Assembly (NCBI RefSeq): GCF_006265175.1
Contig: NZ_VDCQ01000009.1
Span: 62,001-126,000, forward strand
Length of the DNA stretch: 64,000 bases
Origin: Paenibacillus hemerocallicola
GTDB taxonomy: Bacteria > Bacillota > Bacilli > Paenibacillales > NBRC-103111
Direction: 5' to 3'
In this document: positions 34,099-36,027 of the stretch, piece by piece
Layout: each line of letters starts with the position of its first letter
Position numbering within the stretch: position 1 is the stretch's first letter
Position numbers and translations under genes: made by a program
Notes under the pieces: generated by a model
What the model saw: the letters and a program-made list of their open reading frames with translations, nothing else
Told to the model about the DNA's origin: nothing
Database searches by the model: none

Positions 34099-34223
34099 TT
34101 GTCTCCGCTCCTTTATTGATGTTGTGCAAGCCGGTTGTTAAGATACCCACGTGCCCGTGAAGTTATTCGGTCCTGCGGAAGCTCCATTATCAACCCAAGT
34201 ATTTACCGGTATCATAAAAACGT

Positions 34224-34252
34224 TTGACAATCGGACACAAAATGCATATTAT
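34224..34252 (+). promoter_or_regulatory. Strong SigA-type promoter of the T-box/aspartyl-tRNA synthetase unit
   Basis: -35 TTGACA (34224-34229), 17-nt spacer, -10 TATTAT (34247-34252). It fires into the T-box leader. Confidence 0.8.
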
Positions 34253-34264
34253 GATTCAAACAAC

Positions 34265-34516
34265 CAAATCGATGAACCGGAGAAGTACCCCGGACCATTC
34301 AGCGCACAGAGAGCCGTCCCTTGGCTGGGAGGATGGCGGCTGCCACCGGAAGAAAGACACCGGCGAGTTCCGCCTGAACGATCGTTTCACGATCCGGTAG
34401 GAGCGGACGCGCCCCCCGCGTTACGGGGTTCGAGCGATCGCGCTTTGCCGCGCGATAATCAGGGTGGTACCGCGAGTTATTGGACCTCGTCCCTTTTGGG
34501 ACGGGGTTTTTGTGTT
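34265..34516 (+). ncRNA. T-box riboswitch leader (tRNA-sensing antiterminator)
   Basis: The hallmark T-box AGGGTGGTACCGCG lies at 34461-34474, directly before a terminator with a T run (34485-34516). Stem I features are visible: AGTA at about 34281-34284, a CAGAGAGCC segment at about 34305, and a specifier-loop 3' strand reading AAGAAAGACA (34350-34359) between CCGG helix segments. The most likely specifier is GAC (34356-34358, Asp), followed by the usual A; AGA is the alternative. Uncharged tRNA would stabilise the antiterminator and allow transcription of the AspRS gene. Confidence 0.92.
34485..34516 (+). terminator. T-box regulatory terminator
   Basis: Stem from CCTCGTCCC (34485-34493) and GGGACGGGG (34498-34506), loop TTTT, then a T-rich tail. 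Alternative to the T-box antiterminator. Confidence 0.85.
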
Positions 34517-34530
34517 TTCCGTTAAGCGAA

Positions 34531-34611
34531 TCACTTTTGGGGGACCGGTCGGGGGCTCCCCCGACAGTAATCGGAATAAGCTTCGAAGGAGTACTTCACT
34601 TTTTGGGGACC
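34531..34611. repeat. Small repeat element with direct repeats and hairpin in the AspRS leader
   Basis: Direct repeats TCACTTTTGGGGGACC (34531-34546) and TCACTTTTTGGGGACC (34596-34611) flank a perfect hairpin (34549-34564, GGGGG/CCCCC) and the 18-mer CGGAATAAGCTTCGAAGG (34572-34589). The same 18-mer lies at 45049-45066 upstream of the histidine kinase. It probably belongs to a dispersed element family. Confidence 0.6.
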
Positions 34612-34630
34612 TTTTTAGGAGGTGATGCAT

Positions 34631-34789
34631 ATGGACGATGGCGACGACGATGATGATGACGATGACAACAACTTCGCTTTGCGCAACATCAAATTGAAAA
34701 CAAAGGAGTGCGTTTCATGCAAACTCATTCATCTCACCCGATCCGTGTGCTCTGCTCCAGAATCTCCGAACAATTGGAGCAATCCGTAA
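34631..34789 (+). CDS. Asp/Asn-rich leader peptide ahead of aspartyl-tRNA synthetase
   Basis: A 52-codon frame starts at the ATG at 34631 behind a near-perfect AGGAGGTGAT ribosome site. It begins MDDGDDDDDDDDNN: ten Asp and two Asn codons in the first fourteen. It ends at TAA 34787-34789, overlapping the AspRS start in another frame. Amino-acid-specific codon runs just upstream of a cognate synthetase gene are the mark of attenuation leader peptides, in which a ribosome stalls when the charged tRNA is scarce. No second terminator follows, so control would be at translation or by polarity. The remainder of the peptide has no recognised domain. Confidence 0.55.
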   Translation: MDDGDDDDDDDDNNFALRNIKLKTKECVSCKLIHLTRSVCSAPESPNNWSNP

Positions 34790-36027
34790 CCGTACAAGGC
34801 TGGGTGCACGCCATCCGGAATTTGGGCCGGCTTGCGTTCGTTCACGTGCGCGACCGAAGCGGAATCGTGCAGTGCGTCTTAGAAGGGGAATTAGCCGAAA
34901 TGACGCTTAGCCTGGAGTCGGTCGTATCCGTCACCGGGTTGGCCGTCGAAGCGTCGAAAGCGCCCGGCGGCTTAGAAATCCGGGCTTCCGCCATCCAATG
35001 CATTAGCGCCGCGGCTGCACCCCTGCCTTTCGAAATCAACAAAAAAACGATCGGCGCGAGGCTCGACACGATGCTCGACAACCGGGTGCTGTCGCTTCGA
35101 CATCCGAAGGTGCACGCGACGTTTCACATTCAAGCCGCTCTAGCCGGAGCTTTCCGGGACTATTTGACCGAACGGGACTTTACCCAAATTTTTACGCCAA
35201 AAATCGTGGCGTCCGGCACCGAGGGCGGCTCCAACCTGTTCCCCGTCGACTATTTCGGCCGTCCGGCCTACTTGGCCCAGTCCCCCCAATTTTATAAGCA
35301 GATGATGGTAGGAGCCGGCTACGAACGGGTATTCGAGATCGCTCCCGTCTATCGGGCGGAGGAGCACAATACGTCCCGTCACCTGAACGAATATGTGTCC
35401 CTCGACGTCGAAATGGGCTTTATCCGTTCGGAAGAAGAGCTGATGGACTTGGAGCAGGACATGCTCGGATACATGCTCCGGAAGGCGGGTGCGGAATGCG
35501 AGGCCGAGTTTGCTCTCCTTGGGGTGGAGCTTCCGGTGCCGCACGACATCCCGCGAATTCCGGTCGCCGAGGCGCAAAGCATTTTGCAGCGCAAATACGG
35601 CAAAACGTCCCCGAAGGGGGACCTCGACCCGGAAGGCGAACGGCTTATTTGCCGATATGCCGCCGAGCAGAACAAGCCGGCGTTCGTTTTCATTACGCGA
35701 TACCCGCGCGAGATTCGCCCGATGTACGCGATGCCCGCGCCGGAAGACGCTGCGCTGACGGCTTCGTTCGACCTGATTTTCAACGGCCTGGAAATTACGA
35801 CCGGCGGCCAACGCATCCACGACTACGACGAGTTGACCGCTTCCATCCGCGGCCGGGGACTCCTGCCCGAGCATTTCGAGAGCTATCTCGATCTGTTCCG
35901 TTACGGAATGCCCCCGCATGGCGGATTCGCGATCGGCTTGGAACGCCTCACCTCGCGTCTGCTCGGACAGCCCAACGTACGCGAGGCGTCCGCTTTCCCG
36001 AGAGACCGAATGCGGCTGACGCCGTAA
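34717..36027 (+). CDS. aspS2: Archaeal-type aspartyl-tRNA synthetase, probably non-discriminating (Asp/Asn)
   Basis: 436 residues from the ATG at 34717 (AAAGGAG upstream; a GTG at 34708 is possible). OB-fold anticodon domain at 1-110 (VQGWVHAIRNLGRLAFVHVR), then the class II core with FEIAPVYRAEEHNTSRHL (motif 2 region) and GGFAIGLERLTSRLLG (motif 3). About 440 residues without the bacterial insertion domain marks the archaeal type. The His after GWV and the KAPGG loop match non-discriminating enzymes, which charge both tRNA-Asp and tRNA-Asn and need GatCAB to make Asn-tRNA. Controlled by a T-box and perhaps a leader peptide. Confidence 0.88.
   Translation: MQTHSSHPIRVLCSRISEQLEQSVTVQGWVHAIRNLGRLAFVHVRDRSGIVQCVLEGELAEMTLSLESVVSVTGLAVEASKAPGGLEIRASAIQCISAAAAPLPFEINKKTIGARLDTMLDNRVLSLRHPKVHATFHIQAALAGAFRDYLTERDFTQIFTPKIVASGTEGGSNLFPVDYFGRPAYLAQSPQFYKQMMVGAGYERVFEIAPVYRAEEHNTSRHLNEYVSLDVEMGFIRSEEELMDLEQDMLGYMLRKAGAECEAEFALLGVELPVPHDIPRIPVAEAQSILQRKYGKTSPKGDLDPEGERLICRYAAEQNKPAFVFITRYPREIRPMYAMPAPEDAALTASFDLIFNGLEITTGGQRIHDYDELTASIRGRGLLPEHFESYLDLFRYGMPPHGGFAIGLERLTSRLLGQPNVREASAFPRDRMRLTP

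Follow-up and report, generated by a model that had tools for sequence, protein, structure and literature searches.

A conserved Asp/Asn-rich leader frame between an Asp-specific T-box and an aspartyl-tRNA synthetase gene in Paenibacillales

An Asp/Asn-rich leader reading frame lies between an Asp-specific T-box and aspS2, a gene for an aspartyl-tRNA synthetase (AspRS2), in a 64,000-nucleotide stretch of the Paenibacillus hemerocallicola genome (the window), and it is conserved in related bacteria. By analogy with RtpLP, the leader peptide of Bacillus subtilis rtpA, the frame very probably encodes a regulatory leader peptide that serves as a translational gate behind the T-box. The same analogy suggests that the gate most likely reads Asp-tRNA, and it probably reads Asn-tRNA too.

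All elements of the locus are on the plus strand. A promoter-like site, TTGACA-17-TATTAT (34224-34252), which is a consensus match only (11 of 12 positions), precedes a T-box leader placed by the Rfam alignment at 34263-34497. The T-box scores 104.4 bits with the RF00230 covariance model in the window, above the gathering score of 93, and its specifier (GAC, Asp, 34356-34358), antiterminator and terminator can all be recognized (AGGGTGGTACCGCG). The terminator (34482-34509) is composed of a stem of 12 pairs and a T-rich tail, and it is the sole plus-strand terminator-like site in 34150-34850; the scan of the window found none between 34510 and 34850. A direct repeat, TCACTTTTGGGGGACC at 34531-34546 and TCACTTTTTGGGGACC at 34596-34611, is located between the T-box and the leader; L009, L010, L013 and L014 have comparable stretches ahead of the leader, L012 and L015 do not.

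The leader ORF (MDDGDDDDDDDDNN..., 34631-34789) is thus found downstream of the T-box terminator with a ribosome site of its own, an arrangement of the RtpLP type. This Shine-Dalgarno site, AGGAGGTGAT (34617-34626), was recognized from the sequence and from its duplex with the 16S tail, which reaches -18.3 kcal/mol, compared with -8.7 kcal/mol for the aspS2 site in the window. The frame runs from an ATG at 34631-34633 to a stop codon at 34787-34789 and its 52 codons (MDDGDDDDDDDDNNFALRNIKLKTKECVSCKLIHLTRSVCSAPESPNNWSNP) comprise a conserved head, codons 1-14, and a variable tail. The head contains ten Asp and two Asn codons, the ten Asp all within the first 12; the sensor codons after MDDG, eight Asp followed by two Asn, occupy 34643-34672. 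The tail reads through the aspS2 Shine-Dalgarno site AAAGGAG (34702-34708), and the last base of the leader stop is base 73 of aspS2 (34717-36027), which is read in a different frame. The original prediction for this DNA had described a T-box before an AspRS gene and, behind a near-perfect ribosome site, a 52-codon frame with ten Asp and two Asn codons in its first fourteen that ends inside that gene, a description borne out in its coordinates and counts. Such density of Asp/Asn codons is rare: seven or more per 14 codons occur at 3 of the 3,996 stop-free ATG/GTG/TTG starts on both strands of the window, and these three are the leader start itself and, 6 and 9 bases before it, two further start codons in the same frame.

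The aspS2 product, of 436 residues, scores 594 bits with NF003483 (cut-off 353) and 439 bits with TIGR00458 (cut-off 368). With both curated cut-offs exceeded, it groups with the non-discriminating (archaeal-type) AspRS; the original prediction took the enzyme as one that probably charges both tRNAs. The genome (9.65 Mb in 167 contigs) additionally encodes a bacterial-type AspRS and an AsnRS, as well as gatB, whose product is required to complete Asn-tRNA, and three asparagine synthetases that exceed the cut-off, which makes AspRS2 an additional enzyme. The module is present a second time in the same genome (G000:C35:24593-24917, L108/L131), with a T-box whose 90.6 bits fall short of the gathering score of 93, a leader beginning MDDGDDNNNFAFR... 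and a broken aspS2. The leader frame of this copy is open although its synthetase gene is broken.

Searches for AspRS2 at E <= 1e-90 covered 197 relatives (8 with a match), 392 genomes of the order (10 with a match) and 394 genomes of the family of G185 (10 with a match), giving 17 genomes with overlaps counted once; a profile search at E <= 1e-120 in 398 genomes of the class found one, that of P. hemerocallicola itself. One of the 17, G366, was left out, being cut at a contig end, and G826 (L104), with a 46%-identical AspRS2 homologue, has neither a T-box nor a leader. In all 15 Paenibacillales loci with upstream DNA and an AspRS2 at least 65% identical, which span seven genera and two families, the leader start, the ribosome site and the Asp/Asn run are kept, downstream of a T-box that exceeds the gathering score in cmscan. 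A sixteenth leader, in Lederbergia citri (L022), is also located downstream of a T-box found by cmscan, and the specifier, read by eye, is GAC in all 16 T-boxes. Since the loci are related by descent, these counts are not independent events. The Paenibacillales leaders follow the consensus M-[D/N]-D-G-[D/N]-D..., and across the 16 loci the opening run, MDDG included, consists of cognate codons, with 6-10 Asp and 1-4 Asn, its length differing between species by whole codons. The leader of L015 starts with GTG and has a single Asn codon, at position 2; the Lederbergia citri variant (MDDDDDNDDANKYKN...) also starts with GTG and is devoid of the Gly. At all 16 loci the leader site outscores the aspS2 site in 16S-tail pairing, with -14.5 to -24.6 and -8.2 to -11.4 kcal/mol, respectively. 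A guanidine-I riboswitch (RF00442, 75.8 bits) was also detected at L011:1-103, near the aspS2 locus of G091.

Conservation at the amino-acid level is a property of the leader head and not of its tail. In the 15 Paenibacillales loci the mean pairwise difference at codon positions 1, 2 and 3 is 0.07, 0.02 and 0.28 for codons 2-7, and 0.18, 0.07 and 0.40 for the last four codons of the run, compared with 0.55, 0.53 and 0.60 for nine tail codons. The alignment originally proposed as a check thus shows the start, the ribosome site and the Asp/Asn run kept in relatives while the tail varies freely, and the outcome named as fatal to the prediction, a frame or Asp codons not conserved in close relatives, was not found. 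From the end of the run to the aspS2 ATG, stops interrupt the leader frame in 1 of the 16 loci, and the other two frames in 11 and 8. The leader frame crosses the aspS2 ribosome site in 15 of 16 loci, the exception being L015, in which the stop TAG overlaps TAGGAGG. The whole frame measures 20 to 94 codons among the loci. The distance from the last Asp/Asn codon to the aspS2 ATG is 44-47 nt in 14 of the 15 Paenibacillales loci despite the varying run length, the exceptions being L010 (55 nt) and the Lederbergia locus L022 (31 nt).

A leader-start pattern built from these loci matched 8 of the 197 relatives, the same 8 that contain AspRS2, plus the degraded copy in the P. hemerocallicola genome; the matches at the source loci arise by construction, and the result lies in the absence elsewhere. 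The reversed pattern had no match among the 197 relatives. Among 80 AspRS2 loci listed from named genomes, largely Clostridia, a T-box core was found within 700 nt upstream in at least 59. This count is a lower bound, since cmscan on 19 of the 80 detected an upstream T-box in 16, two of which (L018 and L025) do not show the core pattern. Among the 80 loci listed, only L022 and L083 (Lederbergia citri and Paenibacillus ginsengarvi) have a D/N-rich leader that possesses a ribosome site, and N-rich frames with no clear ribosome site were found at L057, which has a T-box, and L065, which has none. Most listed AspRS2 homologues therefore have a T-box with no leader, so that the leader is not needed for T-box control, and the idea that it is a general companion of T-boxed AspRS2 was rejected, given its absence from most of the named loci listed.

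The arrangement has a proven counterpart. In B. subtilis, control of rtpA combines a Trp T-box with the leader RtpLP, which contains three Trp codons and whose full translation prevents RtpA translation (PMC2311275, PMC11255114). The original premise, that a T-box is usually considered sufficient, leaves this case out of account. The accompanying proposal of a second, ribosome-based check downstream of the T-box gains support from conservation, as regards the leader; for the control itself the argument runs by analogy.

The mechanism proposed for aspS2 begins with uncharged tRNA-Asp, in the presence of which the Asp-specific T-box would permit transcription, a step that combines the anatomy described above with general knowledge of T-boxes. 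As the T-box passes transcription in that state, the leader and aspS2 would mainly be made when tRNA-Asp is uncharged. Ribosomes would then load at the very strong leader site. With both Asp-tRNA and Asn-tRNA plentiful, they would traverse the run and cross the aspS2 ribosome site and start codon in another frame, and this completed leader translation would block initiating ribosomes at aspS2. If Asp-tRNA or Asn-tRNA were scarce, we infer by analogy that a ribosome would stall in the Asp/Asn run, at least 44 nt ahead of the aspS2 start codon in Paenibacillales. The aspS2 site would then stay accessible, with possible disruption of a hairpin that would otherwise cover it, and the synthetase would be made. 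Assuming a ribosome reach of 13 nt, a ribosome with the last sensor codon in its A site leaves 31-34 nt before the aspS2 ATG in 14 of the 15 Paenibacillales loci, 42 nt in L010 and 18 nt in L022. The charging state would in this way be checked twice, at transcription and then at translation, and through its Asn codons the leader would also take in the second product of the non-discriminating AspRS, to which the specifier of the T-box is blind. The reading of Asn-tRNA is suggested by the position of these Asn codons, which close the run in 14 of the 15 Paenibacillales loci and are found within it in L022. As the window shows no terminator-like site between the leader and the gene, control is most likely exerted at translation; classical transcription attenuation of the his and trp type was rejected for the window on the same ground, no such site following the leader.

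Structure-based translational attenuation, similar to that of ermC or of the actinobacterial LEU elements, would refine the RtpLP-like gate rather than exclude it: the end of the run would pair with the aspS2 ribosome site, a longer helix would join the leader start to aspS2 codons, and the stalled ribosome would open the hairpin over the aspS2 site. We regard it as a serious contender that falls somewhat short of an even chance. Predicted folds show pairing between the leader start and roughly codons 8-14 of aspS2, the approximate 5' arm (34618-34639) covering the leader ribosome site, the start codon and codons 2-3, and the approximate 3' arm extending over 34738-34758. The duplex was compared at 16 loci with 1,000 synonymous recodings of the aspS2 start and was stronger than the recodings at p <= 0.03 in 12 of them. 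CGTGT, inside the 3' arm, is invariant in 15 of 15 aligned loci, and L022 forms an equivalent helix from different letters (p 0.002). Against this stand the non-significant values at the window itself (L001, p 0.145), L009 (0.255), L014 (0.208) and L098 (0.166), and the overall fold of the window region, with a z of -1.0. The modelling makes a long-range helix likely in the aspS2 leader group. With 500 recodings, a leader-to-gene helix was found in none of five loci of trpS2, a second TrpRS gene described below, and in none of ten rtpA loci (taken from the 20 whose leader follows a T-box core); as a general feature of such leaders the helix was rejected.

The statistics for the inner hairpin of the attenuation model are weak. 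In 11 of 16 loci the aspS2 ribosome site pairs mainly with the end of the run or the bases that directly follow, a pairing with a precedent in the LEU element, in which a run of leucine codons pairs with the downstream Shine-Dalgarno box (PMC1262725). The p values for the hairpin in those 11 loci range from 0.013 to 0.14, uncorrected and against simple shuffles, and it is not the main pairing in L011, L012, L014, L022 and L099. The spacing of 44-47 nt in 14 of 15 loci and the Phe codon immediately behind the run in 9 of 16 loci, or one codon further in 5, also fit attenuation, but a ribosome stalled early in a long run would stay short of the hairpin.

A device based on acidic charge is improbable. 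The Asp residues would then pause or release the ribosome by intrinsic ribosome destabilisation, and the leader would report magnesium, energy or an ABC-F factor instead of charged tRNA. The ten Asp within the first 12 codons suit this idea, and the E. coli leader MgtL provides a precedent, its early acidic residues pausing or releasing ribosomes and thereby controlling mgtA (PMC11282234). However, a charge effect would allow Glu and would not favour Asn, whereas Glu is absent from all 16 runs and Asn is present; both the synthetase gene and the specifier of the T-box relate to Asp, and Trp codons are found in the corresponding leaders of trpS2 and rtpA. Very unlikely, too, is a small acidic protein or a translational coupler, in which the product and not the act of translation would matter. 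The strong ribosome site and the overlap with the gene are in its favour, but the variation in frame length and the divergence of all three tail codon positions alike argue against a protein (a conserved small protein was rejected on the tail divergence), as does the occurrence of the pattern only before AspRS2 among the 197 relatives; a coupler would be expected to stop near the aspS2 start, as seen only in L015 of the 16 loci. A functionless GAY repeat produced by chance or slippage would explain the whole-codon variation in run length but is hardly credible, given the synonymous third-base changes in a kept run, the retention of the start, Gly4 and the ribosome site across seven genera, and the recurrence of the head in the degraded second copy.

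Similar leaders with Trp codons stand behind other T-boxes. The P. hemerocallicola genome yields 34 T-box matches, 17 over the gathering score, and 30 loci were read (L117, L129 and L143 are cut by contig ends). At these 30 loci, stacked leaders, recognized by a ribosome site and one-residue runs, were found only before aspS2, the degraded aspS2 copy and trpS2; because not every other gene was identified, a leader containing few sensor codons may have escaped this reading. The second TrpRS gene, trpS2 (G000:C133:38616-38934, L125/L144), is preceded by a T-box of 99.9 bits and then by a leader beginning MSDGWWQTQ.... TrpRS2 is present in 5 of 117 relatives, the own genome included (L125/L144; L145-L148), with a T-box core visible upstream in all five loci. 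The leaders start with MSDGWW in four and MNDGWRW in one, their middle is variable, and the last base of the leader stop is base 8 of trpS2 in all five.

Anti-TRAP (PF15777) was searched in 269 genomes of the class and in 32 genomes of genus g62, the genus of G609 and presumably Bacillus. The 21 loci of g62 over the cut-off were counted (a weak 22nd, L187, was left out), and 20 of them contain a T-box core. Fifteen of these 20 leaders show M-x-[D/E]-G-W, as in MDDGWWCITDQ and MYDGWWWHSR; the remaining five, one with MEEDW and four with MESDW, lack the Gly. Overall, the starts in this genus (L149, L151, L169-L186) vary between MDDGWW, MEEGWW, MEEGWP, MYDGWWW, MEEDW and MESDW. The leader stops are located just before or just inside the gene, several leaders overlapping the gene start. 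Of the 13 class-wide loci read, 11 (L150, L152-L161) are anti-TRAP-like genes of Bacilli that have no upstream T-box core.

Comparison of the aspS2, trpS2 and rtpA loci indicates three classes of T-box leader that share a start and differ in their sensor codons, with exceptions. Since the anti-TRAP leaders share M-x-[D/E]-G, the first two Asp codons and the Gly of the aspS2 leader may belong to a shared frame and not to the sensor. We tentatively suggest, while leaning slightly the other way, that M-x-[D/E]-G plus a swappable sensor run is a general cassette of Bacilli behind T-boxes, with Trp codons at rtpA and trpS2 and Asp plus Asn at aspS2; the fixed start would then serve a separate purpose, for example by determining ribosome stability or where the ribosome stalls. 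The shared ribosome site and M-x-[D/E]-G start are too short to separate descent from convergence.

A ribosome-based sensor stacked behind a T-box has been proven for one gene, rtpA, and the same layout and peptide start before two spare synthetase genes, for different amino acids, suggest a recurring design; such leaders are short, so that annotation can miss them. The aspS2 locus offers a testable AND gate, in which uncharged tRNA would be sensed by the T-box and missing charged tRNA by the leader, as well as a single leader in which the combination of two amino acids can be tested. The stack of T-box and leader before synthetase genes and the Asp/Asn pair in one leader look new; in the literature searched, partly by title only, no report was found of a leader peptide stacked on a T-box ahead of a gene for AspRS or TrpRS.

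Among known systems, T-boxes of Clostridium acetobutylicum reportedly sense both Asp and Asn (Saad 2012, 2013). They share with aspS2 the T-box control of tRNA-dependent Asn synthesis, but there the T-box itself reportedly senses both, whereas at aspS2 the Asn signal would come from the leader codons. Leaders with no T-box have already been described before spare synthetase genes, in PMC2965389 and PMC1262725. His leader peptides precede hisS paralogues in bacilli and are described in the former as replacing T-boxes; they resemble the aspS2 leader in having a run of cognate codons before spare synthetase genes of Bacilli, but they were found through a terminator search and that portion of the text does not describe them as stacked behind a T-box. 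The LEU element and the classical his, trp, leuS and trpS2 attenuators likewise contain a cognate run read by the ribosome, but the accessible text of PMC1262725 and PMC9413887 describes them with no T-box in front, and the classical attenuators end in a terminator, unlike the aspS2 leader, after which none was found in the window. MgtL shares the acidic residues at the start of the leader and differs in its Mg2+ sensing, Rho-dependent terminator and EPDP motif (PMC11282234). The trpS2 leader, found within the same genus, differs from that of aspS2 in its Trp codons, its stop fixed at trpS2 base 8 and its lack of the long helix (0/5), and it shares the T-box, the variable middle and a frame that crosses the ribosome site of the gene. 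At rtpA the sensor codons are Trp instead of Asp/Asn, the run is shorter, the gene encodes a regulatory protein and not a synthetase, the stop precedes the gene in several loci (such as L171, MYDGWWWHSR) and no leader-to-gene helix was found (0/10). The long, gene-overlapping tail of the aspS2 leader is unlike the short RtpLP type, although several anti-TRAP leaders overlap their gene too. Both systems nevertheless combine a T-box, a strong Shine-Dalgarno site and a short leader of cognate codons, with the Shine-Dalgarno site of the gene itself inside or beside the leader frame.
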